Shown piece by piece: positions 7,825-56,353 of a stretch of 64,000 bases of DNA. The notes under the pieces were generated by a model. It was not told the DNA's origin and did not search any database. It worked only from the letters and a program-made list of their open reading frames with translations. The first letter of the stretch is position 1, and each line of letters opens with the position of its first letter. The position numbers were made by a program, and so were the translations under genes. Origin of the DNA: Wenzhouxiangella marina. Its GTDB lineage: Bacteria; Pseudomonadota; Gammaproteobacteria; Xanthomonadales; Wenzhouxiangellaceae. The stretch covers positions 924,501-988,500 of the forward strand of contig NZ_CP012154.1 of the NCBI RefSeq assembly GCF_001187785.1, in the 5' to 3' direction.

Positions 7825-9291
7825 ATGAAATCATTGTTGCTGCTGCCGTTGATCTGCCTGATGGTGCCCACCTGGGCGCAGGGTGCGTCCGAATCGCTGC
7901 AGGGTGATCCGGTGCCGGCCATCGAGGTCGGTGTTCGCACGCCGGCCACCTTCGATACCTGGAAGCAGGGCGCCGGCGGCGATGGGGAAATGCGTTTTCA
8001 GGTGCGCCTGACCAATGGCGTGACGGCGGTGGCGCCGACGATCGTGCGCACGACGCTGCCCGAGGGGCTCACCTTCGTCAACCACAGCGGTTCGGCCTGG
8101 AGCTGCAGCGCGGTCGGCCAGGCGCTGACCTGCCAGTACAACAACAATCTGACCAGCTCCTCGCCCACCAACAATGTTCGTGTTCGGGTCAATGTGGCAG
8201 GTGACATTCCCGTGCCGGGGGACTCGCTGATGCGCCTGACCGTCGAACACGCGCTGGTGCCCCTGCCGGATCCGCTGGTCTGCGAGTCGAACGCCTCGGC
8301 CGGCGGCTACTACGTGTCGGACACGGGCTGCGTCGAGCGCCTGGTGCCGCATCGCGAGTCGCAGGTCTTCTTCGACCCGGCCAGCTGGACGCGTTCACCC
8401 AATACCTTCATCGCCGGTTCGACCGACAACAGCATCGAGGCGGCCTTCTTCAACCAGGGTTTTACCCCTGCCAATGGTGCGATCACCGTGCGTTATCGGC
8501 TGCCGCCGGGCTTCCTGTTCGATCGCGCCGGGCCGACCACCTTCTGGGGCTGCATCCCCTCGCCGCCGGGGCCCGAGGGCCAGGTGGTGACCTGCTCGCG
8601 CTCGGGCTTCAGTGACAACGCCACGCCCTCGACCACCGGCTTCTTCATGCGCGTCGACCTGGCCCTGGACACGCCGGTGCCCGGCCCCCTGACCCTGATC
8701 GGGATCGTCGAGAACGCCTACCAGCCGGGGCCGGCGGATTTCGAGGACTGCCTGGTCGCCGAGCCGCCGATCGGCTGCAGCACCTACCAGATCCCCACCG
8801 GCAGCCCGCCGCAGGCGCGGATGGAGTTCGTCGAGATCTCGCCCGACCCCGATGCCTTCACCCCGGGTCAGACGGGCAGGGTGTTCATCCGGTACAGCAA
8901 CCAGGGCCAGGCGACGGCCGGCCCGCTCAACCTCGACATTGCCGCGCCGCCGGGCTTCGAGTTCATCCAGACCATCGGCGCCAACCCGGCCATCGGCTGC
9001 ACCGCCAGCGGCGATCCGGCCATGGGTCAGACGATCAATTGCTCCGGTGCCTCGGGTGTCGGCGTCGGCCAGACCGGCCAGCTGTCCCTGGACTTCCAGG
9101 TCGAATGGGCCGGCAGCCTGCTGGTGCCCGTGCTCGGCAGCATCGGTGACAGCACGCGCCCGGCGCCGGGCCTGGTGGCCTGCGAGGTCGATCCCGAGCA
9201 ATCCGGTTGTGGCCTCGGTCAGGTGCCGATCCTGGATGCCCTGTTCTGTGATCGCTTCGAGAGCCCGAGCGGCGGGTGCCGACCGCTCTGA
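7825..9291 (+). CDS. Secreted DUF11-like repeat protein with F-x-D-R-F-E tail
   Basis: This 488-residue protein has a signal peptide (residues 1-20, 'MKSLLLLPLICLMVPTWAQG'). It is built from beta-rich DUF11-like units marked by 'VTAVAPTIVRTTLPEGLTFV' and 'ATAGPLNLDIAAPPGFEFI', each with paired cysteines. It ends 'ILDALFCDRFESPSGGC' plus three residues, matching the tail shared with other secreted proteins here. The gene diverges from the broken R-M gene, and a TAGAAT -10-like box sits at 7778-7783. The 3' end forms a strong inverted repeat with downstream DNA. The molecular function is unknown, and surface or extracellular localisation is likely. Confidence 0.75.
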   Translation: MKSLLLLPLICLMVPTWAQGASESLQGDPVPAIEVGVRTPATFDTWKQGAGGDGEMRFQVRLTNGVTAVAPTIVRTTLPEGLTFVNHSGSAWSCSAVGQALTCQYNNNLTSSSPTNNVRVRVNVAGDIPVPGDSLMRLTVEHALVPLPDPLVCESNASAGGYYVSDTGCVERLVPHRESQVFFDPASWTRSPNTFIAGSTDNSIEAAFFNQGFTPANGAITVRYRLPPGFLFDRAGPTTFWGCIPSPPGPEGQVVTCSRSGFSDNATPSTTGFFMRVDLALDTPVPGPLTLIGIVENAYQPGPADFEDCLVAEPPIGCSTYQIPTGSPPQARMEFVEISPDPDAFTPGQTGRVFIRYSNQGQATAGPLNLDIAAPPGFEFIQTIGANPAIGCTASGDPAMGQTINCSGASGVGVGQTGQLSLDFQVEWAGSLLVPVLGSIGDSTRPAPGLVACEVDPEQSGCGLGQVPILDALFCDRFESPSGGCRPL

Positions 9292-9322
9292 CGGCGCATC
9301 GGGCTCGAGGCTCGAAGCGATC
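9250..9322. other. Long inverted repeat spanning the stop codon
   Basis: GATCGCTTCGAG (9250-9261), which encodes the DRFE tail, pairs with CTCGAAGCGATC at 9311-9322. The inner AGCCCGA (9262-9268) pairs with TCGGGCT (9299-9305). This could fold as a 12+7-bp stem with a 5-base bulge and a 30-base loop. No T tract follows. It may act as an mRNA-end hairpin or be the trace of a local inverted duplication. Confidence 0.55.
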
Positions 9323-9460
9323 GTGAAGCGGTCGCTCGCAGGGATCGTCGAACAGCTCCTTGCAGCGCCTGGTGGTCGCGGTTTGCGCAAGTCATGGCGG
9401 CTTGTCGCCGGATTTTCCGTAATCGATGGCGACTTGATCAATCACTGAGGCACCTCGGCC

Positions 9461-11176: not shown

Positions 11177-11216
11177 GTCTGCTGCCACGGTGGTTGGTGT
11201 AGCTGAGGGCGGGAGC

Positions 11217-12626
11217 TTATTCGAAGCGGTCGGCGAAGATTCCATCATTCAGGCCCAGCGCCGTGCTCAGGTCGGCGACGAAGATCCCTTGGGCGACCGG
11301 GGAGCCGCTGGCTTCCTTGATTGTGGCGGTGAAATAGAACAGGCCCGTGTCACTGAGGTAGCCGTCGTCATTGCCGAAGGTGTTGAAGAATAGGTTGTCA
11401 TCGTCCAGGCCGTTGCCGTTCAGGTCGACCGGGTCGCCTTCGCGGACGACGACGAATTCACCGTTCGCTACCAGTACGCCGTTGCTGGCGGAGTCGCCGT
11501 CCGTGACGCCGCCGATGACGTAGTCACCGCGGCTGTTGCCGGCATGCAGAAAGAAGCAGTCGCTGAAGTCGATGTCCGACCAGAGCTCGGCCGAGCCGGT
11601 GGTCACCGGGGCACCGGTGCTGGCGATGATCTCGCCGTTGCGGTAGACCCAGTCCTGTTCGGTCCCTGCATTGTTACCACGCACGAACCAGTTTCCGCCC
11701 GCATCCATATGGACGCCGACGATGCCGCTTGTGTCGACCGCCTCACTGAAGCTCGATCCAGACAGGATGCTGCCTTCCTGAACGACGACGTTGCCGTCGA
11801 CAACCACCACGTCATCGCTGGCAGTGTCGCCAGTCAGATCGCCCTGGATCAGCCAGCGGCTGCCGTCGGCGGAGAGATGGGAGTCGATGAAGTCGAAGTT
11901 GTCCCAGAATTCACTGCCGACCTGGCCGGGCGGGACCGTGACACCGCTCTGGGCCAGCACTATGGGTCCGAGAACCAGCAGCTCGCTCTGGGAGGGATCG
12001 ACGCCGGTCACGCCCGAACTCACCAGGCCGACATTGCCGAGTTCATCCATGACGACGTTGCGGATGACCGGCCCCCAGCTGGCACCGGGCACTGCCAGGA
12101 TGGCCTGGCCCTCCTGCGCGACCGAGGCGAAGCTGCCGTTGATGACACGCACCACGTATTCGTCGTTGCCTGATGGGCCGTCGGTATTGGTCGAAAAGGC
12201 CCAGTCGCCGTTATCGTTGATGGCCATCTCGGTTCGGAACACACCGAAGTTTTCCGCGCCGCCGGTCCAGGGGGCGGGCGTACCTTCGCGGGCGCTGGTG
12301 ACGCCATTGACCAGAATGACTTCGTTTTCGGTGCTTGGGGCCGTGGTGTTGGCGCTCACGATCCAGTTGCCGTTCGGGCTGCCGTAGATGCGGTCGAAGT
12401 TGCTCGTCCCGCCACCGGGAAAGAACTCGAAGCCCGGGAAGCCCGGGACCGCGGCGCTGGGATCACCGGTGACGTTGGTGAACACGATCTCGATCGCGGG
12501 GACGGTGGCCCCCTGGATGGACGCGGAAGGCGGAACCCGCTGATCGGTGAGCTCGTCCTGGGCGATGGCGAGGCCGGTGAGAAGCAACAGTGTCAGGGCG
12601 ACGGTACGTGCGAGCATCGAGGTCAT
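11217..12626 (-). CDS. Secreted repeat protein ending in F-A-D-R-F-E
   Basis: From ATG 12626 the protein is 469 residues, with a signal peptide 'MLARTVALTLLLLTGLAIAQ'. The body repeats short blade-like units with 'NGDWAFSTNT', 'GNWFVRGNN' and 'SRWLIQGDL', interspersed with 'VVVDGNVVVQEG'. This suggests a beta-propeller or similar all-beta fold. The last nine residues are 'DGIFADRFE', the purest example of the shared C-terminal motif. It converges with the VWA gene. I do not recognise a named family. An exported, probably surface-associated role is inferred. Confidence 0.7.
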   Translation of the reverse strand: MTSMLARTVALTLLLLTGLAIAQDELTDQRVPPSASIQGATVPAIEIVFTNVTGDPSAAVPGFPGFEFFPGGGTSNFDRIYGSPNGNWIVSANTTAPSTENEVILVNGVTSAREGTPAPWTGGAENFGVFRTEMAINDNGDWAFSTNTDGPSGNDEYVVRVINGSFASVAQEGQAILAVPGASWGPVIRNVVMDELGNVGLVSSGVTGVDPSQSELLVLGPIVLAQSGVTVPPGQVGSEFWDNFDFIDSHLSADGSRWLIQGDLTGDTASDDVVVVDGNVVVQEGSILSGSSFSEAVDTSGIVGVHMDAGGNWFVRGNNAGTEQDWVYRNGEIIASTGAPVTTGSAELWSDIDFSDCFFLHAGNSRGDYVIGGVTDGDSASNGVLVANGEFVVVREGDPVDLNGNGLDDDNLFFNTFGNDDGYLSDTGLFYFTATIKEASGSPVAQGIFVADLSTALGLNDGIFADRFE

Positions 12627-12855: not shown

Positions 12856-12872
12856 CCAAGGCCGGAGCAGCC

Positions 12873-13094: not shown

Positions 13095-13096
13095 GT

Positions 13097-28898: not shown

Positions 28899-30845
28899 AT
28901 GATGTCGGGTCTGAAACAGATTGCACCTTGCTTTCCGTCGAGAGAGATCAGGGCGTCGATGCTCGGTCTGGTCTGCTGGCTTCTCGCCGCACTGCCGGGA
29001 GTTGGCCAGGCGCAGATCCCGGCCAACGAGCGCCAGGCCTTGCTCGATCTCTATGCGCAGACCAACGGACCCGACTGGATTGAGGATTCGGGCTGGGGCG
29101 GTCCGCCGGGCAGCGAATGCGGCTGGTTCGGCGTCACCTGCCTGAATGGACAGGTGGGCGATCTTCGGCTGGCGGCCAACGGTCTGAGCGGCAGCCTGCC
29201 GGTCAGCATCGGTGATCTCGATGGCCTGCTTTTCCTCTGGTTGTCCTTCAACGATCTCGGCGGGCCCTTGCCGAGCAGTCTGGGTAATCTCGCACGATTG
29301 CAGTATCTCTATCTCGACGGCAACGCCTTCTCCGGCGGCATTCCGGCGTCGCTGGGTCAACTCGGAGCGCTGCAGTGGCTTCTGCTGCACGACAACCAGC
29401 TCAGTGGTCCGATCCCGTCGGGCCTGGGCAGCCTTTCCGAACTGCGAGTGCTCAGGCTCTACGACAATCAGCTCAGCGGATCCCTGCCGCCGGGCCTCGC
29501 CTCGCTGACCTCGATCGAGGAAATCGACCTGAGCGGCAACGCGCTGACCGGGGCACTTCCTTCGTCCTTGCCGGGTTGGGGCCAGCTCCGCCTTCTCGAC
29601 CTCAGCGACAACGCATTGACCGGGCCGCTGCCGGCAGCCATTGCCGAACTCGTCCGGCTGGAACGGCTTGCGATTCAGCGCAATCAGCTGAAGGGGCCGT
29701 TGCCGGAGGGTCTCGGCGGGCTGGCAGCATTGCGAGAGCTTTATCTGGATGGCAATCTCATCGGTGGCGGGTTGCCCGCCGAGATCGTCGAGTTGAGTCA
29801 GCTCGAAATCCTTTCCCTGGGTGATAATCCGCTCGGTGGGGAACTGCCTTCCACCATCGGTCAGATGTCGGCCCTGCGGGAGATCTACCTCGGAGACGCC
29901 GAGCTGGCCGGGTCGATCCCATCGAGCCTCGGGCAGCTCGACGAGCTCGAGCGCCTGTACCTGTTTTCCAATCAGCTCGAAGGTCCGCTGCCCGCCGCCT
30001 TCAATCAACTTTCCGGTCTGGTGGAAATCAACCTGGCGGGCAATCAGCTCAGCGGTGCCCTGCCCGGTGGGCTGAGCGGGCTGGTGCAACTCGAGCGACT
30101 CTGGCTGGAGGGCAATCGCTTCAGCGGACCGTTTCCCGCAGCCGTGGCGGAATTTCAGGCCTTGAGCAGCCTGCGTCTGCAGTTCAACTGTTTCAGTGGC
30201 CCGCTGCCCGACGGGCCGGGTCAGTGGGCCGCACTGGTCGAACTGGATGTTCGCGTCAATTGCCTGACAGGCGAACTGCCGACCGGTCTGGGCGAGGCGG
30301 CCTCGCTGGAGACGCTCCGTTTGAGTGCGAATGACTTCAGCGGTTCGATTCCGAGCGAGTGGCTGGCCCTCGACTCGATCATCGCTCTGGACCTCTACGA
30401 TAATCGTCTCGACACCGATGATCCGACCTTGATCGCCTGGCTGGATGCGCTGAATCCGAGCTGGGCGCGCTGGCAGACACGGCCGCCCGAAGATCTTTCG
30501 GTGGCTGCCGTCGATGCCACGAGCGTCACGCTGAGCTGGACGCCGATCGATTATCCGCTGCAGCAGGCCGGGTACTATCACGTCAGCGCGGAGTCCGACC
30601 CGTCGCTGTTCGCCGACCGATTCGAATCGGCCTTACCGGTCCCGCCCTTGGACGCATCCTTTCAGGCGGCGAGCACGGACTATTCAGCGAGCGCCTTGTC
30701 CCTGGTCGATCTGGTCCCGGACACGGTCTATCGGGTCGTGGTTCGATCGATCACCCCGGCGCGAGTCGATCCGGTCTTCCCGCAGCAGAATACCCTGATC
30801 AGCCGTCCGACGGCCGTGCTGCAATTCACCACGCCCGCACAATGA
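28899..30845 (+). CDS. Secreted leucine-rich-repeat protein with Fn3-like end and internal F-A-D-R-F-E
   Basis: This 648-residue protein has a signal peptide ending near residue 38. A cap 'ALLDLYAQTNGPDWIEDSGW' of the plant-type LRR N-terminal kind is followed by about 19 LRRs of ~24 residues with 'LxxLxLxxNxLSGxLPxxL'. After the repeats an Fn3-like unit ('LSVAAVDATSVTLSWTPIDY') contains 'SDPSLFADRFESALP', the motif found at the C-terminus of the other exported proteins, but here 71 residues before the end. Ligand is unknown and surface display is likely. ATG 28899 is chosen for its upstream GGAG. Confidence 0.8.
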   Translation: MMSGLKQIAPCFPSREIRASMLGLVCWLLAALPGVGQAQIPANERQALLDLYAQTNGPDWIEDSGWGGPPGSECGWFGVTCLNGQVGDLRLAANGLSGSLPVSIGDLDGLLFLWLSFNDLGGPLPSSLGNLARLQYLYLDGNAFSGGIPASLGQLGALQWLLLHDNQLSGPIPSGLGSLSELRVLRLYDNQLSGSLPPGLASLTSIEEIDLSGNALTGALPSSLPGWGQLRLLDLSDNALTGPLPAAIAELVRLERLAIQRNQLKGPLPEGLGGLAALRELYLDGNLIGGGLPAEIVELSQLEILSLGDNPLGGELPSTIGQMSALREIYLGDAELAGSIPSSLGQLDELERLYLFSNQLEGPLPAAFNQLSGLVEINLAGNQLSGALPGGLSGLVQLERLWLEGNRFSGPFPAAVAEFQALSSLRLQFNCFSGPLPDGPGQWAALVELDVRVNCLTGELPTGLGEAASLETLRLSANDFSGSIPSEWLALDSIIALDLYDNRLDTDDPTLIAWLDALNPSWARWQTRPPEDLSVAAVDATSVTLSWTPIDYPLQQAGYYHVSAESDPSLFADRFESALPVPPLDASFQAASTDYSASALSLVDLVPDTVYRVVVRSITPARVDPVFPQQNTLISRPTAVLQFTTPAQ

Positions 30846-38100: not shown

Positions 38101-39106
38101 GGCCGATGGGGTCGAGGTGGCGCATCTGCTGCCCACCGGCTACAGCTATCAGGGCCACAACAGCGACCTTGGCAGCTACAACTCGGCCACCGGCCAGTGG
38201 CAGATCGGCAGCCTGGAGGTGGGCGAGGGCGCGGTGCTGGAGGTCGAGGTCCTGGTCAACGGCGCCGGCGGCTTCACCAGCTCGGCCTCGGCCAGCAGCT
38301 TCTCGGAAGACCCCGAGCCCTTCAATAATCTGGCCTTTGCCGAGGTCGATCCCTTCACCGACCTGGCCGTTAGCATCGAGGCCGACGCCGAATGGGCGGG
38401 GATGGGCGATGCCCTGGCGATGACCGTCGAGGTGAGCAACGCCGGCCCGCGCGCGGCCGATGCCGTCAGCGTACAGGTGACGCCCCTGTCGGGCGGGTTC
38501 ATCCCCCAGGAGTATTTCGCCTCGATCGGCGACTACGAGCCGAACTCGGGCCTCTGGACCGTGGGGTCGCTGCAGCCGGGCGAAACGGCAGTGCTGGTGA
38601 TCGACGGCACGCCCGGCTTCGTAGAGGACACCGGTGTCGGCGCCACGGTCAGTAGTGCCGCATTCGATCTGGATCCCTCGAATAACAGCGACGACGTGCT
38701 GGTGCGCTATCAGTTTCCCGGAGCGTGGGGTGAGGTCTCACCGGCTTCGATCGACTTCGGTGAGGTCATGGTCGGTCAGTCCAGCGACTCGGTGGTGATC
38801 ACCGTGACCAGCGTCGGTGACGAGCCGTTGGATATGGGCTTCACGACGCTCTGGGGTGATGATGACGTGCATTTCGTATTCGACGGCGGCTCCTGCACTC
38901 CCAGCTCGCCGCCGTTGAATGTCGGTGAGACCTGCATCGTCTCGCTGCGCTTCGTCCCCGAGGCGGCAGGCACGTGGACCGATGCCGAGGTTCGAATCAG
39001 CTCCAATGATCCCAACGGGACCTATGTCATCCCGGTCAGCGGTATCGGTCTGCCCGATACGGTCGAGGACGCGATCTTCTCCGACCGCTTCCAGGGGTTC
39101 CAATGA
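35108..39106 (+). CDS. Very large secreted delta-60/DUF11/HYDIN-like protein with F-S-D-R-F tail
   Basis: This 1332-residue protein has a signal peptide ending near residue 28 ('ISAGPALA'). Residues ~30-760 are beta-propeller-type delta-60 repeats ('RLNEDGSVDNSF', 'DGRILVGG.F'). Next come DUF11-like domains (~840-1190) and an abnormal-spindle/HYDIN-like domain ('VSPASIDFGEVMVGQSSDSV'). It ends 'VEDAIFSDRFQGFQ', matching the shared tail. ATG 35108 has AGGAGG upstream. Codon use is less GC-biased at about 36.24-37.29 kb than on either side. Predicted to be exported and perhaps surface-bound, with unknown function. Confidence 0.8.
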   Translation: MRAQARRRIVARCIALLGLLISAGPALALNEDEGYQPDPNGMVYSLISTPYGTLVGGNFTSIAGLPRSRLAMLDAAGRNTSFFAGPNLSGGDVNVSLLAGGTDLVIAGSFNGRIQRLDGDGALLSPWFSSNPDGDIHALAEKPDPMTGNYGIYIGGSFANVGGQARTGVARLNYNGLLDTGFVPPDFSGSVRALAVQDDGKLLVAGSIGIAGQIPARRLYRLNEDGSVDNSFQAAGLASGVRTVLALEIEDDGRILVAGEVDGDGFVLRLNADGSLDGDYEPPSLNGPVYALDLLPDGRALIGGDFTSGVGPRSRIARLNEDGSVDNGFAPLVNPNAAVRTVLVQDDGAVLLGGAFNQITGLGRNRLARLDALGRIDQAQAEVEFAPSDIEAPRTIALQADGRILVGGSFTHINGTSRRLLARLHPNGSLDSSFAPVIGGVSIYAIAVQRDGRILVGGWFETVNGTPRSRLARLHPDGSLDTSFNAGLIAGNLPKVNSIHILDDGKILIGGRFTEVNEQARLDLARLHPDGSLDTNFSPSWTESQTPLTLKSLAVDDNGWVYTCGEGYASQDRLVFARFTPSGQLWSSFDPPLAIGVGQHFCRSIVIDDHIVVGGRIQYSFGGNQYGWSLIDQNGNHTVASPFEGGRVISIQKTGSGYLAAGNFLLNEESKHLALLNHAGNALRPGVQPWSAGSVELFRDNTTLQMTPDGRVLLGIDDHLHRLANPDGLPLRQRIVWGTPGNPERLVWDRMTGFGSAPALLGTPRVLVSQTCCDEDDFAPAAGGGWMSRDGDDWRLEGFAGLPGKFYVRIEYRAGNSKGSSTFLTPIQRLYGEVPPGVDTADLSLKLVIDQDPVEPGDVVIVDVLAGNAGPDLAGLPSVTIDLPAGYTLIDFDDSDQGTFLPGDRLWKLDDLAGSGPAAGAQLRLQLQVTQQTPHTIEAQIFASEFDPNLNNNVATLTPDVLRSRSDLKLVHSVSPAAALPGDQVTFAVLVDNLGPEPADGVEVAHLLPTGYSYQGHNSDLGSYNSATGQWQIGSLEVGEGAVLEVEVLVNGAGGFTSSASASSFSEDPEPFNNLAFAEVDPFTDLAVSIEADAEWAGMGDALAMTVEVSNAGPRAADAVSVQVTPLSGGFIPQEYFASIGDYEPNSGLWTVGSLQPGETAVLVIDGTPGFVEDTGVGATVSSAAFDLDPSNNSDDVLVRYQFPGAWGEVSPASIDFGEVMVGQSSDSVVITVTSVGDEPLDMGFTTLWGDDDVHFVFDGGSCTPSSPPLNVGETCIVSLRFVPEAAGTWTDAEVRISSNDPNGTYVIPVSGIGLPDTVEDAIFSDRFQGFQ

Positions 39107-40006: not shown

Positions 40007-40327
40007 TCATCCGTTGCGCTCCTGCGGACCTTCGATCCGCGTCGGCGAAGCATCGAAGCGATCCTCGAACAGGCGCCTGAACCGCTCCGGGTCGAAGTGA
40101 TGGCCGGAGCAGCCATCGATCAGGAAGTGCCCGGCAGATCGCTGGATGGCCTGACGCCCATGCCACTGGAGGGTGGCTTGGAGCCGGTGACCAGCGGAGG
40201 CGGCGAAGACCTGCCCGGCATTGAGCTCCGAGCACAACAGCTGGTGGCTTACGCCGCGGGTGTCCGCCAGCACCGTGGCGGCGTTCAGCCAGAGGACTGC
40301 AGTCAACAGCGCGCAGAGCCTGATCAT
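40007..40327 (-). CDS. Small secreted protein with L-F-E-D-R-F-D near C-terminus
   Basis: This 106-residue protein has a signal peptide ending near residue 21 ('WLNAATVLA'). The mature part has two cysteines ('LLCSELNAG', 'LIDGCSGHH') and ends 'FRRLFEDRFDASP' plus 11 residues, a weaker form of the tail seen in other secreted proteins here. Its ATG overlaps the stop of the MopE-like gene by four bases (ATGA), so it is cotranslated. The function is unknown. It could be a processed partner of the cysteine-rich protein. Confidence 0.55.
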   Translation of the reverse strand: MIRLCALLTAVLWLNAATVLADTRGVSHQLLCSELNAGQVFAASAGHRLQATLQWHGRQAIQRSAGHFLIDGCSGHHFDPERFRRLFEDRFDASPTRIEGPQERNG

Positions 40328-41605: not shown

Positions 41606-42778
41606 TCAGCCGCCAGGTTCGAAGCGTGAGGAAAAGATCCGGTCCGGAACCAGGGCGCCACGATAACGTCCCACGAAACCGCCGGCACCGACCACGGTGA
41701 CTTCCCCGTCCGAGGCGATCGCACAGCGGCTGACACTCTCGGCGGACGGCGTCGGCGTGATGTTGCTGAAGCTCTGGCCGCCGTCGGTCGAGATCATCAC
41801 CCGGCCCGTATTCGTGCCCAGGGGCTGGCGTTCGCCGACCACGACGATCGTGTCGTTGCGCATGCACACGCCGCGGGCCCAGGTGCCGAAGCCGCCGTCG
41901 CCGACGATGTCGGGCAGGTCGAAGACCGTGTAGTCGTTGGCGTTGTAGGGATCGTTGCCGCTGACGTAGATCTTGCCCGTATCGTTGTCCTGGTCGACGC
42001 CGACGGCGACGACGCGCTGGGCATTCACGGCGATCCCCCACATTTCCCCGTCGTAGGACGCATCGAGGATCACTTCGACCAGCTGCCAGGGCTCGCTCCC
42101 GGGCGTCTGCGGCGGAAGGAAGACCCGCGGGGCGATATTGATCCGGCTGCCGGCGGCATAGAAGCCCTCATCGAAGGCGACCAGGTCCTGGAACTGTTCC
42201 AGGCCGGTGGCCGGTGCGTCCCAATCGGCGGCCGAGCTGCCGGTGAGGGCATCCGGGCGGTACAGGCGATCGAAACCGGTTTCCGAATCCGCCAGAGCGC
42301 GTCCATCGGACAGCTCGACGTAGTTGCCGACGTTGAACTGGCGGCCGACCTGGGGAACCGAGGTCAGGGTGGCCGTGGTCGGGTAGGGCATCGGGCCGCT
42401 GGTGTCGAGGCGAACCACGCGCAGATTGGTCCCCGCCGTGGTGTCGACGCCGCCGGCGTAGAGGGCGCCGTCGTGGCCGCGGGTCAGGGTCATGACGCGA
42501 AATTCGTCGACCATGTCGGCCGGGCTGGTGGTCACCGCCTGCCAGTTGTCGCCACCATCGGGACTGACGAACAGGCCCAGGCCGTTGGTATTGGTGCCGC
42601 AGCCGACCCAGAGCGTCCCGTCGGCATCGAGTTGCATGGCATCGGTTCGGGAGGGGCCTGGACAGGGATGGGCATCGATCTCCCAATCGGCTCCGGCCCG
42701 GGCCGCTGGACTGAACTGTAGACACAGGGTGGTGGCCGCGCAGAGCGCAAGACGCCGAAGCGAAGAAGCGTGGTTCAT
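41606..42778 (-). CDS. Secreted beta-propeller (BNR/sialidase-like) protein with F-S-S-R-F-E tail
   Basis: From ATG 42778 (GAGGAA upstream) the protein has 390 residues, with a signal peptide ending near residue 28 ('SPAARA'). Asp-box-like blades appear as 'LFVSPDGGDNWQAVTTSP' and 'VMISTDGGQSFSNITPTP', so a beta-propeller related to exo-alpha-sialidase/BNR proteins is likely. No glycosidase active site is visible. It ends 'VPDRIFSSRFEPGG'. It is downstream of the second giant regulator in the same direction, with about 136 bp between them. Confidence 0.75.
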   Translation of the reverse strand: MNHASSLRRLALCAATTLCLQFSPAARAGADWEIDAHPCPGPSRTDAMQLDADGTLWVGCGTNTNGLGLFVSPDGGDNWQAVTTSPADMVDEFRVMTLTRGHDGALYAGGVDTTAGTNLRVVRLDTSGPMPYPTTATLTSVPQVGRQFNVGNYVELSDGRALADSETGFDRLYRPDALTGSSAADWDAPATGLEQFQDLVAFDEGFYAAGSRINIAPRVFLPPQTPGSEPWQLVEVILDASYDGEMWGIAVNAQRVVAVGVDQDNDTGKIYVSGNDPYNANDYTVFDLPDIVGDGGFGTWARGVCMRNDTIVVVGERQPLGTNTGRVMISTDGGQSFSNITPTPSAESVSRCAIASDGEVTVVGAGGFVGRYRGALVPDRIFSSRFEPGG

Positions 42779-46507: not shown

Positions 46508-49179
46508 TCCAGCACCGACTTCTGATCTGCCTGTTCTCCCTGAACCTGTTGATGCCGACGATCACCCGGGCCGCGATCATCGACATCGGGCCGAACGGCT
46601 GCTCCCTGGCCGACGCCATCCGCAGTGCCAACCTGGACTCGGCCATTGGCCAGTGCAGCGCAGGCGCCGGCACCGATCAGATCGTGGCGCCGGACGGCTG
46701 GGAGATCACCCTGTCGAGCGAGTTGCCGACGATCGAGTCCGACCTGACCCTGCGCACCCAGACGGCGGCCGGCCATCTGCGGATTTCAGGCGACTTTTCC
46801 GTGCCGATCCTGAAGATTCATGGCAGCGGCACCGCCGTCAACATCCATCGCGTGGAGTTCTTCGGCGGCAAGCGTGACGGCGTCGGCAATCCGGGCGGCG
46901 CGGCACTCAGCATCCGCGACGCCACGGTCAGCATCGTCGACAGCGAGTTCCGGGCCAATACGGCCAGCCTGTCCGATGGCGGGGCGATCAATATCCGGGA
47001 CGGCGTGCTGCTGATGACCCGCACCGTGATCAGTAACAACTGGACGCGACGCACGGGCCTGACGCCGAAGCGCGGCGGGGGCATCTATGCCGAAGACAGC
47101 GTGCTGGATCTGGAAGAGGTCTTCTTCGATCAGAACTTCTCCCTGCTGTTCAACCCGGAAGAGGCGGGCACGACGCTCTCGGACGGCCTGTTCATGAACG
47201 GGGGCAGCCTCGTGCTCCGAAAGAGCGAGGTCTACGAGAGCTACTACGGCATTCGGGCGATCAACGCAGCCGATGTGCTGATCGAGAACACGACCTTCGA
47301 GGATGCGGAATCGGGCTATGTCGATATTCCGAAGCTCGAGTACGAGGGGCCCGGCGTGCTCGTCCTCAATCACGTGACGATGAGCGCGGAAATGCGCGTG
47401 GTCAACGCCATCCTCGAGGCCAGCAATTCGATCTTCGCCCAGTGCGTGACCACGGGCACGACCTGGACCGTCGACACGGCCAACAAGTACTTCAATTTCG
47501 ACTGCAACGGCCCCCGGGACTGGCCCGGCGTGATTGCGCTGGCGGACAACGGCGGCTTCACGCGCACCCGCGCATCGACGCTGAACTCGAGCGTCGTCGA
47601 CGCCGGTGATCCAGCCTACTGCCTGGCCGAGGATCAACGCGGCGAGCCCCGCGGCGCCCAGTGCGATATCGGTGCCTATGAATTGACCTCCTTCGCGGAT
47701 GTCGGGGTCAGCCTGGTCATCGAGCCAGCCGGGCCCTGGGTGGACGGCCAGGCCGTGCGGGCCATGGTCGAAGTGTCCAATGCCGGTCCGGGGAACGCCA
47801 ATGCAGTGTCCCTGAGCGCGGCCACTCAGCAGTTCTTCGTGCAGGGCGTCGATGCCTCCTTCTGCAGCTCGCTGCCCTGCCTGATCAATCAGATTCCGGC
47901 GGGCGAAACGGTACGCGTGCCGATCGATGCCGTGCTGGGCAGCTTTCAGTCGGCCGGCTTCGACGTCGATGTGGCGGCCTCGCGCACGGGGGCGTCCTAT
48001 TACCAGGACCCGGACGAATCCGATCCGGGAGGCAACAACCGGGCTTCGGCCAGCGGTGCCATCGATCCCGGTGCGGATCTGTCTCTGCAGCTCGATCTGC
48101 TGACGCCGCCCCCTTACTTTGTCGGCCAGACGGTGGTCTATCGGGCAGTCATCGCCAATGGTGGCGGCCAGGCCGCCTCACCCGTGGAGCTGGAACTGTT
48201 TCCAGCCGGTGGCACTATCGAGGCCTTCGCCGGCTGCAGCTCGGTCAACGGCCCGCTCTGCACACTTGGCCAACTGAACGACGGCCAGACGGCCCAGATC
48301 GACCTGGACTTCAAGGTCAATGCCGCGGCCTTCGTGCTCGATGGTGAGGTGAGCGCGCCCCAGCTCGACATCGCGCCCGCCGACAACCTGGACGATCAGG
48401 GCAATCAGGGCGCGGTCAGCGAAGCCGATGTGTCCGTGGAGCTCGAGCTGGCCCAGAGCGCTCCGTATTATTCGGATCAGTTTCTGGTGTTCACGGCTCG
48501 CATCCGGACCGGCAACGCGCCGGCATCGAATGTCCGCTTCTGGTCGGAGATGCCGGGTGCGGTCGGAGGTTTCTTCGATGCGCCGTTCTGCACCGGGGGC
48601 TCGCCCTGCGTCATACCGAGCATGGCGGCCAACGAAGAATTGGTGGCCACCATCGCCGTGTTCGCTCCCGTTGCGCCCGATGATGGCAGTGTTCCGAGCT
48701 GGGCGCATCGGATCTACGCCGAGCCGGGCCAGGTGGATTCGAACCCTGCCAACAACGAGGCCATCATCCAGCAGAACTACCAGGCCGCCACCAATCTGGT
48801 CGTCGATGTGGAGCTGCTCAGCCAGCCGCCCTTTGCCGCCGGGGACGTGGTCGATTACGAAATCGAGCTGATCAACGGCGGCGTCAATCGGGCCCGTGAT
48901 GTGGTGTTGACGGTGGACGCCGACAACCTGGAGCTCGAATTCCTGTCCGGTAACCAGTGCCAGGCGGTCGATTGCGAACTCGCGACCATGGACTTTGCGC
49001 AACGGGAGCGAATTCTCCTTCAGTACCGCGTCGTCGATCCCGGCGACTTCAACCTCGGGGCGAGCATCACGGGCGCCGATTACGACCCCGCCCTCTCGAA
49101 CAACAGCGACCCGCTCAACGGCGCCACAGCCGTCGCGCCCTTGACCGATAGCCTGTTCTCGGATCGGTTCCGGCCATGA
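46504..49179 (+). CDS. Secreted right-handed beta-helix/DUF11 protein with F-S-D-R-F tail
   Basis: This 891-residue protein has a signal peptide ending near residue 23. The first ~370 residues are a parallel beta-helix, marked by 'LSIRDATVSIVDSEFRANTA' and 'SDGGAINIRDGVLLMTRTVI'. It closes with a choice-of-anchor-Q-type segment 'RGEPRGAQCDIGAYEL'. Several DUF11-like domains follow. The last residues are 'DSLFSDRFRP'. It is coupled to a DUF3592-like membrane protein. Beta-helix proteins of this kind are often surface structures or polysaccharide lyases, but no lyase motif is seen. Confidence 0.8.
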   Translation: MIQHRLLICLFSLNLLMPTITRAAIIDIGPNGCSLADAIRSANLDSAIGQCSAGAGTDQIVAPDGWEITLSSELPTIESDLTLRTQTAAGHLRISGDFSVPILKIHGSGTAVNIHRVEFFGGKRDGVGNPGGAALSIRDATVSIVDSEFRANTASLSDGGAINIRDGVLLMTRTVISNNWTRRTGLTPKRGGGIYAEDSVLDLEEVFFDQNFSLLFNPEEAGTTLSDGLFMNGGSLVLRKSEVYESYYGIRAINAADVLIENTTFEDAESGYVDIPKLEYEGPGVLVLNHVTMSAEMRVVNAILEASNSIFAQCVTTGTTWTVDTANKYFNFDCNGPRDWPGVIALADNGGFTRTRASTLNSSVVDAGDPAYCLAEDQRGEPRGAQCDIGAYELTSFADVGVSLVIEPAGPWVDGQAVRAMVEVSNAGPGNANAVSLSAATQQFFVQGVDASFCSSLPCLINQIPAGETVRVPIDAVLGSFQSAGFDVDVAASRTGASYYQDPDESDPGGNNRASASGAIDPGADLSLQLDLLTPPPYFVGQTVVYRAVIANGGGQAASPVELELFPAGGTIEAFAGCSSVNGPLCTLGQLNDGQTAQIDLDFKVNAAAFVLDGEVSAPQLDIAPADNLDDQGNQGAVSEADVSVELELAQSAPYYSDQFLVFTARIRTGNAPASNVRFWSEMPGAVGGFFDAPFCTGGSPCVIPSMAANEELVATIAVFAPVAPDDGSVPSWAHRIYAEPGQVDSNPANNEAIIQQNYQAATNLVVDVELLSQPPFAAGDVVDYEIELINGGVNRARDVVLTVDADNLELEFLSGNQCQAVDCELATMDFAQRERILLQYRVVDPGDFNLGASITGADYDPALSNNSDPLNGATAVAPLTDSLFSDRFRP

Positions 49180-50227: not shown

Positions 50228-50552
50228 CGCGCTCCGGCGCATCGGGCTGGGTTCCTTCATGACCTTTCTGCACCTGATGTTCGCGTTCGAGGCGCAGCGC
50301 CTCGAGTTCGCGATGGGTGCGGCGGACCTGTTCGTCCAGGCCGAGATCGAGTTTGGGCAGTGGCCGTTCGACGCGAATCGACGAGGCGTCGAACGCTGCC
50401 GGCTCGGTCGAGGGTGCCTGCCGTGGCTGGACGATGAAGCGATCGATGCCCAGGATGCTCAGGCCCAAAGCGATCACGACCGCGCAGACCTTGAGAATCA
50501 GCTTCTGTGCCGGACTGAAACTGTCGACCAGATGTTGCCAGAATTCGCTCAT
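50214..50552 (-). CDS. Small single-pass membrane protein, second gene of a tagged-protein operon
   Basis: This 112-residue protein has an N-terminal amphipathic start, a membrane helix at about 18-40 ('LKVCAVVIALGLSILGIDRF'), then a polar tail with a short helical or coiled-coil segment 'RRTHRELEALRLEREHQVQK'. Its ATG overlaps the stop of the tagged propeller gene by four bases, and its 3' end overlaps the next membrane protein. The tight coupling suggests a complex at the inner membrane. Function is unknown. Confidence 0.65.
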   Translation of the reverse strand: MSEFWQHLVDSFSPAQKLILKVCAVVIALGLSILGIDRFIVQPRQAPSTEPAAFDASSIRVERPLPKLDLGLDEQVRRTHRELEALRLEREHQVQKGHEGTQPDAPERDDPF

Positions 50553-52909
50553 TGGTCCGCTCCCTCGAAGCGATCGGAGAAGATCGCGTCTTCCACCTGT
50601 GTGTCGAAGGTGAAGATCGAGAATCCGGCAACAGGCAATCCAGTGAGCCAGTTGTAGGCGCCGCCAACGAGCAGCGTGTTCTGGTGCCGCCTGACAGCGA
50701 TGGCGCCGCCGAGGTCCAGGGCCAGGGCGGGGAAGACCGGCTCGCCGAGACGCTGGATCTGACCGCTGTCATCCAGGATCGAGATGCCGAGGCTCAGGCC
50801 AGCCTGGGTCTCGATGCGTCCGGCGATCACCAGCCCGGCCGGATCGTCGAGGAGACCGCTGGCAAAGCCATCGTCGAGGTCTGCTGGATCGAGCCAGCTT
50901 CCGTCGCTGAAGCTTGACAGGACGCGCGAAAAATCGCCGCTGTCCGGGCTGAAGGCACCGCCGCCGACGACCAGGCGGTTGGGGTTCGCGACGAGCGAAT
51001 AGACATCCCCGCCTGGACCCCCGGCTGGACTGCTGAAGCCCGTGCCGTCCCAGAGGGCCACCCCTTCGGCAGCCACCCCGCCGGCGGTGTTGAACCAGCC
51101 GCCGAGGTAGAGGCCCTCGCCACTGCTCGCCAGGCTGTAGACCGCATCATCGACGCCATTGCCGAGGAAGTTTTCCAGCGCGCTCCAGACGCTGCCATCG
51201 AAGGCGGCGATTCGATTGACGGTCTGTCCGCCGAAGAGGGTCAGGAAATTGCCGCCCACCAGCAGCTCGCCCTCGTGAATGGTCAGGGCGTTGACCGTGC
51301 TCGAGGGGGGTGTGTTGATGGGATTCCAGGCGCTGCCGGTCCACCGAATCAGGTTGCTGGCGGTCTGCAGGCCCAGCTCGGCGACATCGTCGAAGTCGCC
51401 GCCGACATGGAGTTCGCCCTGGTAGACGGCCAGGGCGTTCACTTCCCGGCCGACGACCGTCGAGGATTCCACGCCGATGAAGCCATTATCCTCCAGCGCA
51501 TGCCACTGCTGGCCGTCGAAGCGGGCGATGCGGTTGACGCGGGTCGGGCCGGCGTAGCTGAAGGTGCCGCCGACGTAGATGTCGTTCTGGAACACCGCCA
51601 CCGCCTGCACCCGGCCGTCCAGGCCGAGGCCATCATCGGGGCCGAGGGGGAGGGTGGTGGCGTCGAGGAAACGCGCGATGCCCATGGCCTTGATCCCGTC
51701 CGCGGTGGAGAAGGTCCCGCCGACCAGAACGCTGTTGCCGACCTTGGCCAGGCTGAAGACCGAGCCATCGTTCAGGCCGCCGGAGCCATTGTTGCCGACC
51801 ACGCCACCGCCCGTGAGTGCACCGACCGGATGCCAGCCGCTGCCATCCCAGCGTGCCAGGTTGTTGACCTCGATGGCATCGATCTCGCCGAAGCTGCCGC
51901 CGGCATACAGATCGCTGCCGTCGACGAGCAGGGCCGAGACGCGATCACTGGTGGGAAACTGCGTGTCCTCGGCGCCGAAGGCCTGCCAGGCCGTGCCGTC
52001 CCAGCGCACGAGGTTGCTTCGCTCCACGCCGGCGATGTCGCGGTCGAAGCGCCCGCCGACGACCAGGTCCGAACCCAGGCTGGCCAGGGCGCTGACCGAA
52101 TGTGTGGAGCTCGTGCCGACGCCGTTGTCGGGGCCCGTTCCGATCGACGCCCAGGCGCTGCCCGTCCAAAGGGCCACGCGGTTGGCCTCGATCGTGCCGG
52201 CCTGGGTGAAGCCTCCGCCGAGCACGATCTGGTTGCCCAGCGCCAGCAGGTCGTTGACGCCCCCGTCGACGCCGTTCTCGGCGCCACTGCCGACGCTGGA
52301 CCACTGCTCGTTTTCCCAGTAGGCGATGTTGTTGGCCGTGATGGCGCCGGCCGTGTCGAAGCTCCCGGCGACGTACAGGCGGCTGCCGATCAGGACCATG
52401 TCCAGAATAAACACACTGAAGATCGTGGTGGTGGTCACGCCATTGTCCTGCTCGGTCCCCAGCCGGGACCAGCCATTGCCATCGAGTCGGGCGATGCGAT
52501 TGGCGCTGAGGCTGCCGGCCTGGGTGAAGCTGCCCGCCACATAGAGCGAGTTGCCGTCGAAGACCAGGGCGCGAACCGTCCCATTGACGCCAGCCACGCC
52601 CTGGTCGATGACCGCGGAGTAGCTCTGACTGGTGGGGTCGAAGACGGCCAGGTTGTTGACCACCACGCCGTTGCAGCTGGCGAACTGGCCGCCAAGAAAC
52701 AGCCGCCCATCCGGCGCCAGTGCCGTCGCCAGGATGCTGCCATCGCAGCCCGGTGAAAGGAAGAAGCGGTCGTCCCATTGGCCCGCGATCGTCGCGGATG
52801 CCAGTGCCGGAAGAAGTGTCAGGACGAGAAGCAGTGGGAGCAGAGCGCGCCAGCCTCCGATCGATGCGTGGTTGTCGGGGCAGCGCTGGGTTCGGGCCTG
52901 GAAGTGCAT
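50549..52909 (-). CDS. Secreted beta-propeller-like repeat protein with F-S-D-R-F-E tail
   Basis: This 786-residue protein has a signal peptide ending near residue 39 ('LPALASA'). About a dozen repeats of ~48 residues carry 'GNQIVLGGGFTQAG', 'VNNLARWDGSGWHPVG' and similar, as in Kelch-like or delta-60-type propellers. The end is 'VEDAIFSDRFEGADQ'. It is first in an overlapping operon with two membrane proteins. It is presumed exported, and the repeat face could bind carbohydrate or protein. Confidence 0.8.
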   Translation of the reverse strand: MHFQARTQRCPDNHASIGGWRALLPLLLVLTLLPALASATIAGQWDDRFFLSPGCDGSILATALAPDGRLFLGGQFASCNGVVVNNLAVFDPTSQSYSAVIDQGVAGVNGTVRALVFDGNSLYVAGSFTQAGSLSANRIARLDGNGWSRLGTEQDNGVTTTTIFSVFILDMVLIGSRLYVAGSFDTAGAITANNIAYWENEQWSSVGSGAENGVDGGVNDLLALGNQIVLGGGFTQAGTIEANRVALWTGSAWASIGTGPDNGVGTSSTHSVSALASLGSDLVVGGRFDRDIAGVERSNLVRWDGTAWQAFGAEDTQFPTSDRVSALLVDGSDLYAGGSFGEIDAIEVNNLARWDGSGWHPVGALTGGGVVGNNGSGGLNDGSVFSLAKVGNSVLVGGTFSTADGIKAMGIARFLDATTLPLGPDDGLGLDGRVQAVAVFQNDIYVGGTFSYAGPTRVNRIARFDGQQWHALEDNGFIGVESSTVVGREVNALAVYQGELHVGGDFDDVAELGLQTASNLIRWTGSAWNPINTPPSSTVNALTIHEGELLVGGNFLTLFGGQTVNRIAAFDGSVWSALENFLGNGVDDAVYSLASSGEGLYLGGWFNTAGGVAAEGVALWDGTGFSSPAGGPGGDVYSLVANPNRLVVGGGAFSPDSGDFSRVLSSFSDGSWLDPADLDDGFASGLLDDPAGLVIAGRIETQAGLSLGISILDDSGQIQRLGEPVFPALALDLGGAIAVRRHQNTLLVGGAYNWLTGLPVAGFSIFTFDTQVEDAIFSDRFEGADQ

Positions 52910-53028: not shown

Positions 53029-53054
53029 GGATCGATCCGACCCGAGGGGCGGAA

Positions 53055-56000
53055 TCAGTTCTCGAAGCGATCGTTGAAGATCGAGTCGACCGGGAGTTCG
53101 ACGGTGAAGTCGACGGTCAGGACTTCGGCGTCGACCGTGACGGTGACCGTATCGCCGGTCGCGAAACCCGGGGCCGTGTAGTCGGCATCGAGGAGTGCCG
53201 CGCTGGTCGCACCGACGGCCGGCGTGACCGAGCCCTCGTTGGCCGCGAGAATGACCGGGGTCGCCGGCAGCGTGCAGCTGGTGACCTCATTGCCGTCGGA
53301 GTTGCTGCGCAGGTCCAGGTTCAGACCGGTGGTCGAGTTGATCAGCACCGTGCCGGCATCGGCCGTCAGTCCGGCCACCAGCCAACGATCGGTGGTCAGA
53401 CCGGTGTCATAGGCATCGCAGTCGCCGGCATTGGGGCCGGCATTGCAACCCCACCAGTTGTCGTCGGCCAGCGAGATGCGGCCGGCCTGGGTGATGTTGC
53501 TCAGCCCCAGATCGTTGCCATGGATGCGGTTGCAGCTCAGGTCCGCGGCACCGTTGGAGTCGATGAGGATGCCGGTGAGGTTATCGACGGCCGTATTCGA
53601 AACGAACTCGATCGGATCCCGGGTCGAGAAGTCCGCACCGTAGGTATCGAAGCTCAGCCAGCCGTAACCGACGTTGGCACCTTCCGCGTAATTGCCCTCG
53701 TAGCGCGTTGTTGACGAGGCGGACGAGTGCGAGGTGATGCGGAAGGCCTCCTGGTCGTTCAATGACGGATCGTTGGCTGGATCCAGATTGATGAAACGGT
53801 TGTTGCGTACCGTGATATTGCTGGTATGCGCGTTGCCGTTCTCCCAGATGCCGATGATGCCGGCCGGGATCTCGGCCTGGGCCAGCAGGATCCGGATCTC
53901 GTTGTCTTCGATGACCAGACCTTCATAGGCGCCGCCGGAGGTGTTGGACTGCATGGCCACCTGGGCCGCGCGCAGACTGGCCGTCGACGCGGAGTCTCCC
54001 GGGATCTCGATCACGTTGCGGGCGATCAGGATATTGTCGCCGAAGGAGTAGTGAATGCCGATGTTCTGGAACGCCTCTCCGCCCTGCGAGTTGCCGGCGA
54101 CATCGCGCGGCATGGCGATGAAGTTGTCGATGATGGTCAGATTGTCGTAGACGTTGACGCCGCCGCCGTTGTAGTAGATGCCGATGGCGACATCGAAGTC
54201 CTCGATGACCAGATTGGAGATTTCCAGCCCCGGGTTGGTGCCGTAGACCAGCAGGAAGCCTTCGAGATCGACGCCGGCCAGGTCGCCCGGTCCCTTGATC
54301 GTTGCATCGCCCGGTGCAGTGGCGGTGATGGTCAGATCAGCCAGGCCGTCGGGCACGTAGATCGTCCAGTCATCGACGGTGCCGTCGATGCCGTCCGAGC
54401 CGAGCGCCCAGCTGGCAAAGGCATTGCTTTCGTTCCAGTCGAAAACGCCGTTCAACACGATCTGGTCGCCGGGGCCTGCGATCTGGACGACGTCGTTGAT
54501 GCGGGTGTAGTCGTTGTCGGTCGGGCTCGGGATGTCGCCGGTCAGGGCGACTGACTCGATCACCCCCAGCAATCTCACGCTGGCGGCGTTGTTGTTCGCA
54601 TCGCCGTCGTTGTCGGCGGCCACGCTCGCGCTGTTGACGATCGTGCCACTGGAGGCCACGACCGTGTCGATCGTGCAGATCGTGCTGGCGCCGCTGGGCA
54701 GGTCGGCCAGGGCGAAGTCGACGCTCTGCCCGGCCACGTTGGCGACGCTGCCATCGTCGCAGCTGCCGGCCACGAAGCTCAGATTGTCCGGCAGCACGTT
54801 GAGGATCGAGACGTTCGCTGCCTTGGCCAGGTCCGTGTTGCTGGCGACGAGCTGATAGGTGATCGCGTCGCCGGTGAACTGGGTGCCTGTGGCCGTGGTG
54901 CTCATGCTCAGCTCGACGTCGGACACGGTGCCGCCGCTTGCACTGCCGACCAGGATGTCGATATCGCTGCGGGCGACTTCGACACCGTCGGCGTTGTAGG
55001 CCGCCAGGTAGATGCGGTAGCTGCCGTCGACGGTCGGATCGAAACCGGCGATCGGACCGCTGGCGAAGAACTCGTAGCGCCAGGAGTTCTGGGCCACGTT
55101 GTTGTTGGCGATCAGGTTCTGATAGGTGGCGCCGGCGTTCGGGTCCCCGAGGCAGTTGGCGGACGTGCCGCCCCCGTTGGGCGTTCCGTTGTTACCCATG
55201 GCGTGATCCCAGCACGGGACCTCGGCCGTCGGGGTGATCGGATCGAAGACCAGGAAGTCCGTGCCCAGGCTCGGATCCGCGTCCAGGCCCAACTCGTAGG
55301 TATAGGCATCGACGTTCGGTCCCGCGCCGCCCTGATAGTTGGTGTTGACCGACCACTCGAAGCCCCATTCCGCGCGCAGCGGGCTGCCGCCCGGAACCAG
55401 GCGCGGGGCAAAGGAGTAGGTGCCGTCACCGTTGCTGTTGAAGGTGTTCTCGGGCACGCCCGAGGCGTTGTAACGGAGCTTGCCGCGCAGGCCGAGCTCG
55501 ATGTCGTTGCGACGATCCGTGGTGAACTCACCATTGGCGTTGCCGCTGCCGAAGATGGCCTCGGGGGTGACGTTCTGATCGAAGGCCAGCGGCGGATCGA
55601 CCACGATGACCTCGATCTCGCTGCGCGCGACCACGCCACTGCCGTTGGATGCCTGGAGGTAGATCGTGTACCGGCCGGGCAGGCGCGGATCGTAGTCGGC
55701 AAGTTCGTCGATCAGGAAGAAGCCGTACTGCCAGGAGTTCTGGGCGACGTTGTTGTCCGTCAGCAGTCCGGCGTAGCTTTGCCCGGGGTTCGGATCGGTG
55801 ATGCAGTTGACGGCGGTGCCGCCACCATTGCCGGTTCCGTTGTTGCCGATGGCATGATCCCAGCATGGCGCTTCGGCGCTGGGTGTGATCGGATCGAAGA
55901 CGAGGAAGTTCGTGCCCGGGCCGGGATCGGCGTCCAGGCCGAGCTCGTAGCTCAGGTCATCGAGGTTCAGTAGCGAACTTCCGTCGAAGTCCGTGTTGAC

Positions 56001-56324
56001 CGCCCATTCGAAGCTCCATTCGCCGCGCTGACCGTCGGGAAAATTCGGGCGGCTGCGCGTGTAGAAGGTATAGCTGCCGTCGCCGTTGCTGTTGAAGACG
56101 TTCTGCGGCACGCCGTTCTCGTCGTAGCGGAGCTTGGCTCGCAGGCCGATTTCGACGCCGTTGAATCGGTCCGTGGTGAACGCACCGTTATTGTTTCCGG
56201 CGCCGAAGATGATCGTCGGTGTGACGTCCTGATCGTATTCCACGGTCGCGATTGCGTGCGTGGCCAGCAGACCAGCGGCCATGGCAAGCAGAGATCCCCT
56301 TCGGGAGCTTGATCGATTGAACAT
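53055..56324 (-). CDS. Very large secreted tandem-domain/DUF11/beta-helix protein with F-N-D-R-F-E tail
   Basis: From ATG 56324 (GGGGA upstream; 56339 is a poorer alternative) the protein has 1089 residues, with a signal peptide ending near residue 26. Two tandem ~220-residue domains share 'PCWDHAxGNNGTxNGGGT', 'NNVAQNSW' and 'FNSNGDGxY'. Then come a DUF11-like domain ('GDAITYQLVASNTDLAKAAN') and a right-handed beta-helix ('NLTIIDNFIAMPRDVAGN'). The final residues are 'DSIFNDRFEN'. A strong terminator follows. It is a probable surface or extracellular protein, and I do not recognise the tandem domain. Confidence 0.8.
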   Translation of the reverse strand: MFNRSSSRRGSLLAMAAGLLATHAIATVEYDQDVTPTIIFGAGNNNGAFTTDRFNGVEIGLRAKLRYDENGVPQNVFNSNGDGSYTFYTRSRPNFPDGQRGEWSFEWAVNTDFDGSSLLNLDDLSYELGLDADPGPGTNFLVFDPITPSAEAPCWDHAIGNNGTGNGGGTAVNCITDPNPGQSYAGLLTDNNVAQNSWQYGFFLIDELADYDPRLPGRYTIYLQASNGSGVVARSEIEVIVVDPPLAFDQNVTPEAIFGSGNANGEFTTDRRNDIELGLRGKLRYNASGVPENTFNSNGDGTYSFAPRLVPGGSPLRAEWGFEWSVNTNYQGGAGPNVDAYTYELGLDADPSLGTDFLVFDPITPTAEVPCWDHAMGNNGTPNGGGTSANCLGDPNAGATYQNLIANNNVAQNSWRYEFFASGPIAGFDPTVDGSYRIYLAAYNADGVEVARSDIDILVGSASGGTVSDVELSMSTTATGTQFTGDAITYQLVASNTDLAKAANVSILNVLPDNLSFVAGSCDDGSVANVAGQSVDFALADLPSGASTICTIDTVVASSGTIVNSASVAADNDGDANNNAASVRLLGVIESVALTGDIPSPTDNDYTRINDVVQIAGPGDQIVLNGVFDWNESNAFASWALGSDGIDGTVDDWTIYVPDGLADLTITATAPGDATIKGPGDLAGVDLEGFLLVYGTNPGLEISNLVIEDFDVAIGIYYNGGGVNVYDNLTIIDNFIAMPRDVAGNSQGGEAFQNIGIHYSFGDNILIARNVIEIPGDSASTASLRAAQVAMQSNTSGGAYEGLVIEDNEIRILLAQAEIPAGIIGIWENGNAHTSNITVRNNRFINLDPANDPSLNDQEAFRITSHSSASSTTRYEGNYAEGANVGYGWLSFDTYGADFSTRDPIEFVSNTAVDNLTGILIDSNGAADLSCNRIHGNDLGLSNITQAGRISLADDNWWGCNAGPNAGDCDAYDTGLTTDRWLVAGLTADAGTVLINSTTGLNLDLRSNSDGNEVTSCTLPATPVILAANEGSVTPAVGATSAALLDADYTAPGFATGDTVTVTVDAEVLTVDFTVELPVDSIFNDRFEN

Positions 56325-56353
56325 GTATTGAATCCCCATTGTTTTTTGGTGGT

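Follow-up and report, generated by a model that had tools for sequence, protein, structure and literature searches.

Short C-terminal homology regions that are carried by many Sec-exported proteins and occur patchily among genomes characterize the PEP-CTERM/exosortase, GlyGly-CTERM/rhombosortase and MYXO-CTERM/myxosortase systems. A C-terminal signal also routes many different proteins outward in the type IX secretion system (T9SS), where it is a folded domain of roughly 70-100 residues. For the type II secretion system (T2SS), passages of two papers leave the choice of cargo open and give structural signals as the prevailing view (PMC7949064, PMC12369372); the signals of PelI (loop 3 of an Fn3 domain) and of VesB (an Ig fold) lie within folded domains of single cargo proteins. 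Here we analyzed a nine-residue motif, D-x-[IL]-F-x-[DS]-R-F-[EQR], which ends seven proteins encoded in a 64,000-nucleotide stretch of Wenzhouxiangella marina DNA (contig NZ_CP012154.1, positions 924,501 to 988,500; hereafter the window), with 0 to 9 residues between the motif and the stop. We propose that this tail is a short linear sorting tag for a second T2SS, called here system B, a reading to which we give a probability just under one half (roughly 0.48).

The genome was scanned at the DNA level with a strict pattern, D-x-[ILM]-F-x-D-[RG]-F-E, and with a loosened one, [ILM]-F-x-[DN]-[RG]-F-[DE], the reversed pattern serving as control. The strict pattern gave 36 matches in the 3.68 Mb genome and its control none, while the loosened pattern gave 74 matches, the placement of part of which was checked, again with no match for the control. 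In 32 of the 36 strict sites no more than 14 residues separate the motif from a stop; the four others (L001, L019, L020, L029) are internal or distant from it. Both phenylalanines are fixed by the search pattern. The codons for the fixed residues vary, and the first-pass annotation had concluded from differing codons that selection acts on the peptide. The excess of 36 matches over none and the near-stop position of 32 of them lead to the same conclusion. A chance origin of the motif is ruled out by the reversed-pattern controls.

Signal peptides were scored by a lenient in-house rule, which is not SignalP, on 34 open reading frames (ORFs) with the strict motif, two of which carry it far from the stop; L208, L215 and L223 yielded no ORF, and the strict motif is present in only four of the seven window proteins. 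The rule was passed by 31 of the 34, and the three failures are truncated at the 5′ end. Every one of the 31 motif ORFs whose 5′ end is complete therefore passes, against 33 of 79 control ORFs (Fisher p 8e-10); these controls cover in part the refuting condition of the first-pass annotation, an equal frequency of the motif in cytoplasmic proteins. With the tag removed, 38 tag-bearing bodies fell into 20 blastp groups (three of 11, 6 and 4 members, and 17 singletons). In kind the tag is a C-terminal sorting signal, placed close to the chain end in many exported proteins whose bodies differ; its form is new to the sources searched. The motif also occurs in other arrangements. The protein of L213 (761200-766600 of the genome) ends in two tandem tag-like copies (ILQDRFE...DDIFRDRFE). 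In L001, L029, L112 and L042 copies are internal or near the N-terminus, one of them ahead of a CxxCH-like stretch, and those of L112 and L042 directly follow, by eye, an apparent signal peptide.

Residue 7 of the tag changes with the lineage. In the W. marina genome it is arginine at all 36 strict sites and in all 38 near-stop tags, most of which were fetched by a search permitting R or G. Counting R as CGN codons only, we found it at 271 of 278 sites in the genus Wenzhouxiangella (24 of 30 genomes found), against 8 of 463 sites in 34 genomes from other families of the order, in most of which G prevails. Families and genera of the order are labelled f and g below, g1 being Wenzhouxiangella, in which G009 and W. 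sediminis (G320) have identical tag counts and identical listed sites. Within its own family R occupies 15 of 15 sites in g6, 3 of 22 in g7 and 0 to 2 per genome in g3. Six W. marina proteins have sister-genus homologues with G at residue 7; for one of these, a homologue with R exists as well, in G173. The best partners share 33-61% identity over 372 to 1358 aligned positions, with alignments reaching within 17 residues of the tag, in a comparison that took tag-bearing loci only and in which the stretch fetched truncates one partner, L251; judged by these alignments, they are likely orthologues. For instance, the G158 homologues of the window proteins 35108-39106 and 50549-52909 end in DVIFYDGFE and DRIFADGFE, respectively. 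This sister-genus genome (f1, g7) has 19 G and 3 R at its strict sites, as if caught mid-switch, and its copy of GspD-B, the secretin of system B, is 73% identical to that of W. marina (71-78% for R-lineage relatives).

The joint change of one residue across different bodies, which also holds in the homologue pairs, is best explained by a common partner, that is, by a shared reader of the tag. The alternative, an expansion of the tagged proteins from a few R founders, is weakened by the homologue pairs carrying G. A second variable position is residue 6, where N replaces D in many tags of G011, G003, G015 and G048, so that the strict pattern undercounts these genomes. G011 (f11), for example, has no strict match and 31 loosened ones, 23 of them with N at position 6, and this residue is also common in the listed genomes of f4.

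In the order Lysobacterales, 121 of 299 genomes match the tag, with two reversed-control matches in total. In the rest of the class, six of 365 genomes have one match each and the control gives five matches in four genomes; outside the order, the tag is as rare in the class as its reversed control. The first-pass annotation had an impression that F-x-D-G-F-E relatives occur in Lysobacterales, and the D-G-F-E form is indeed spread over the order. Among the matches listed, near-stop tags were found in Wenzhouxiangella, Dokdonella, Tahibacter, Pseudofulvimonas and metagenome-assembled genomes of Lysobacterales; those of Nocardia, Mycobacterium, Rhizobium and like groups are mostly distant from any stop and appear to be chance matches. 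Wenzhouxiangella, Dokdonella and Tahibacter are also named among many genera listed in PMC10765051 for the S-layer protein NpdA, which was considered as a possible partner of the tag.

A GspD match was obtained in 80 of 80 genomes tested, tagged or not, and 77 of these exceeded the cut-off. The T2SS as such is therefore rejected as the partner of the tag, and only one clade of GspD discriminates. A quick tree of 60 GspD proteins separates a widespread clade A from a clade B (core support 98), which has 24 rows from tag-rich genomes and six from genomes without a strict match. In W. marina the B locus reads rhlB-gspC-gspD-gspE-gspF-ftsE-ftsX. Its GspC has T2SSC and PDZ matches, and GspD-B and GspE-B exceed the NCBIfam cut-offs. 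In 39 of the 40 loci fetched, gspD-B is preceded by a GspC-like ORF whose end lies no more than 315 bases upstream. The A locus resembles an E-to-N-D operon by size and gene order, GspD-A being the only component identified by search. One genome of f12, G074, has three GspD-A-type paralogues and no strict or loosened tag match.

The co-occurrence of the tag with system B was then evaluated in 159 genomes of the order, with the W. marina GspD-B as query. The protein was scored present at E values of at most 1e-110 and absent at 1e-37 or weaker; seven f2 genomes, whose paralogues reached 1e-57 to 1e-77, were scored absent, and G118, G167 and G212 were scored present from fragments. Genomes with at least three strict or at least four loosened matches, a cut set after seeing the data, were taken as tag-bearing, and the loosened scan covered 111 of the 159 genomes. 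GspD-B was found in 78 of 84 tag-bearing genomes and in 7 of 75 tag-poor ones (p 4e-29, a value that ignores kinship), or in 75 of 81 and 7 of 75 when the fragment calls are excluded. Its frequency follows the strict count: 61 of 63 genomes with at least three matches, 13 of 24 with one or two, and 11 of 72 with none. In the subset of 111 searched with the loosened pattern, GspD-B is present in 30 of the 36 genomes that bear tags and in 7 of the 75 that are tag-poor. The contrast is clean within two families. In f12, all 28 genomes without GspD-B have at most two loosened matches and 10 of the 11 with it are tag-bearing; in f2, all 21 without it have at most two loosened matches and both genomes with it are tag-bearing.

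Several observations weigh against a tag read by system B. In f8, three of five genomes with GspD-B are tag-bearing, and four of 22 without it have 6 to 13 matches. Two near-complete genomes of this family, G063 and G097 (97-98% complete), carry C-terminal tags and no GspD-B, and contradict a strict need of the tag for system B. Among 20 stretches taken around their loosened matches (13 from G063 and 7 from G097), the motif lies within 7 residues of the stop in 14, one of which (L456) has a reading frame of only 19 residues. G122 and G171 have 7 and 6 loosened matches without GspD-B, as counts regardless of place. G048 (90% complete) and G059 (77%) are tag-bearing and lack it; G062 is a same-genus relative with GspD-B of the former, as are G030 and G066 of the latter. 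Conversely, GspD-B is present with few tags or none in G006, G064, G082, G084, G127, G201 and G229, and G304, from Acidobacteriota, carries 18 sites and lacks a homologue of GspD-B. At the locus itself, GspC-B (80 of 102 bits) and GspF-B (415 of 424) stay under the NCBIfam cut-offs while exceeding those of Pfam. No pseudopilin or GspL/M gene lies beside the B genes, which run from C to F only, no search having been made elsewhere in the genome. In G108 the region upstream of gspD-B gave no adjacent gspC and just a PDZ-like stretch at about 1.1 kb. No charge change in the GspC columns tracks the R/G switch (4 R-lineage and 34 other GspC, with G178, G084 and G108 set aside). Finally, system B was searched for, rather than a profile of all families, and another gene may fit the tag better.

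The retention of tags in G063 and G097, where system B is missing, is in line with the main rival, a role in anchoring after export. The tag would then be a surface-retention or processing signal, similar in outcome to GlyGly-CTERM or MYXO-CTERM and read by some enzyme or outer-membrane receptor, and system B would be the usual route or a lifestyle marker. We consider this explanation possible but doubtful. Against it stand the short form, which keeps no fixed distance to the chain end (0 to 14 residues in W. marina), and the existence of internal and near-N-terminal copies.

Sorting by system B is favoured by the varied cargo, by the shared reader that the residue-7 switch points to, and by the match between tag and system B in f12, f2 and partly f8. 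It is also favoured by published recruitment via the GspC PDZ domain and an Fn3 loop: in the parts concerned, PMC12369372 describes the PDZ domain of GspC as required for some T2SS cargo, and PMC7949064 describes nine residues of Fn3 loop 3 of PelI, between strands C and C′, as a T2SS signal. The sole Fn3-internal copy of the motif found here seems, by eye, to occupy the same loop. Under this proposal the tag would sit on Sec-exported, folded proteins and, in Lysobacterales, would be read in the periplasm by system B (gspC, gspD, gspE and gspF). Recruitment would most likely proceed via GspC-B (homology region and PDZ) and/or the N-domains of GspD-B, and system B would then pass the tagged cargo outward for release or display. 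The reading role of system B and its working as a complete T2SS are inferred; contact through GspC or GspD and a final location of the cargo outside are likewise predictions.

A reader of the PDZ type is made less attractive by the internal copies and by the residues following the motif, which vary. The same variation bears on another possibility. PDZ proteases read C-termini, and a mostly C-terminal tag with two phenylalanines might be a degron or quality-control signal for a periplasmic PDZ protease; its conservation on many exported proteins speaks against a destruction signal as well, and we regard this function as very improbable.

Compared with the PEP-, GlyGly- and MYXO-CTERM systems, which it resembles in its placement, its many Sec-exported hosts and its patchy occurrence, the tag differs in lacking a transmembrane helix, a basic cluster and a conserved cysteine, and in having internal copies. 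The 38 W. marina tags are followed by 0-14 residues, mostly 0-5 in the short form, which on reading leaves no room for a helix and shows no sign of one. No NCBIfam tail model matched the seven window proteins at E values up to 1, nor five tail peptides at E values up to 10, a search in which one of the peptides was a mixture made by mistake and in which the HMMER filters drop most weak matches. A search with a 17-residue peptide gave no match. Membership in the tripartite CTERM systems is rejected on architecture and NCBIfam results, and the earlier statement that the tail is not of a standard PEP-CTERM/GlyGly-CTERM type thus holds. The missing helix, basic cluster and cysteine also argue against retention or processing of the CTERM kind after export. 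A precedent on the other side is MYXO-CTERM: for its proteins, PMC11980579 gives predicted lipidation and cleavage, followed by delivery to the surface through the T2SS. Like the T9SS domains, the tag would route many different proteins outward, but it has nine residues (21 in the Acidobacteriota form) and no folded domain. No NCBIfam match to a T9SS tail was found in the seven window proteins at E values up to 1, and no search was aimed at T9SS genes. With the signals of PelI and VesB it may share recruitment by the GspC PDZ domain and GspD; those signals differ in lying within folded domains of single cargo proteins. We found no paper on the motif in the open-access literature, a scope outside which most subscription journals fall.

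Within the window, all seven tails that the first-pass annotation had named were found at their genes, four of which, as a correction of strand, lie on the minus strand. On the plus strand, DALFCDRFE (9235..9261) stands 9 residues ahead of the stop of the DUF11 protein 7825-9291, DAIFSDRFQ (39068..39094) 3 residues ahead of that of 35108-39106 (delta-60/DUF5122, DUF11 and choice_anch_D), and DSLFSDRFR (49147..49173) 1 residue ahead of that of 46504-49179 (choice_anch_Q and DUF11). On the minus strand, DGIFADRFE (11220..11246) forms the extreme end of the 11217-12626 protein, in which an NxxGxxAF repeat match is weak and under the cut-off. DRIFSSRFE (41618..41644) stands 3 residues ahead of the stop in 41606-42778, DAIFSDRFE (50564..50590) 4 residues in the propeller-repeat protein 50549-52909, and DSIFNDRFE (53061..53087) 1 residue in the DUF11 protein 53055-56324. 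The two further copies that had been claimed are also present: an internal LFADRFE (30606..30626, plus strand), 72 residues from the end of the leucine-rich-repeat protein 28899-30845, in an Fn3 stretch and by eye between the apparent strands C and C′, and a weak form, LFEDRFD (40052..40072, minus strand), 14 residues from the end of the 40007-40327 protein. The observation itself is confirmed, and its interpretation as an export, sorting or anchoring signal is supported where it could be tested.

The claim that the tagged bodies share nothing else is slightly too strong. Several different bodies are indeed present, but Pfam and NCBIfam searches place DUF11 in four of the seven (7825, 35108, 46504 and 53055) and DUF5122 propeller repeats in two (35108 and 50549). 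Choice-of-anchor domains D and Q were found in one body each (35108 and 46504, respectively). This name refers to domains after which various C-terminal anchors occur, and the presence of such domains in two of the seven bodies is what a surface-retention role would lead one to expect. Two large proteins with similar starts, 31782-34793 and 42915-45770, both on the minus strand, adjoin tag genes. By eye they resemble OmpR-type winged-helix regulators, possibly of the tag cargo.

Longer forms of the tag were found outside the class. Twenty-three further genomes, chosen for having a match in a scan of named genomes, were examined, and ten of them have 5 to 18 sites each, with no control match; eight of the ten are labelled Acidobacteriota or Thermoanaerobaculia and one Deltaproteobacteria. 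One site was found in a second 'Deltaproteobacteria' genome and likewise in Gemmatimonadetes and Planctomycetota, and 1 to 3 in Chloroflexi. Twenty-seven long-form tails were taken from loci picked for a near-stop site; a single tail, L193, comes from that second 'Deltaproteobacteria' genome. In this Acidobacteriota form exactly 12 residues follow F-[ED] in 23 of the 27 tails; among these 23, W is the seventh residue after F-[ED] in all and P the terminal one in 18. The largely uniform length and the frequent proline end fit the recognition of a chain end, as would be expected of processing or retention after export.

In Anaerolineae, the stretch D-[LV]-I-F-x-D-G-F-E-S-G-N-L-x-A-W-S starts a domain of 202 to 208 residues, for the scanned copy of which Pfam and NCBIfam gave no match. 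The domain (L106, L158) is repeated in L106 and closes near F-D-A-F-E-S-R-R. The first 17 residues of this domain look, by eye, similar to the Acidobacteriota tail. A domain opening with a tag-like stretch suggests another origin: the tag could be the orphaned first strand of a jelly-roll-like domain, a structural module that caps or dimerises its host and spreads by fusion with no reader in trans. The jelly-roll nature of a domain without a Pfam or NCBIfam match was judged by eye, and a lineage-wide residue switch across different bodies is hard to explain without a common reader; we consider this origin improbable.

The first-pass annotation is extended by the lineage-wide change of residue 7 between G and R, by the association with a second T2SS locus and by the form found in Acidobacteriota. 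We would suggest only tentatively that the tail is the first general linear recruitment signal for a T2SS, a nine-residue tag on dozens of cargo proteins that changes together with a dedicated second T2SS and has a longer, fixed-length relative in Acidobacteriota served by another machine. If sorting by system B is true, the choice of cargo could be probed directly with fusions and point mutations of a short tag that belongs to a single T2SS and can be moved between proteins, and the lineage-wide G/R switch would provide natural variants for mapping the reader. The sorted proteins could then be listed from sequence in Wenzhouxiangella, Dokdonella, Tahibacter, Pseudofulvimonas and many uncultured members of Lysobacterales and Acidobacteriota.

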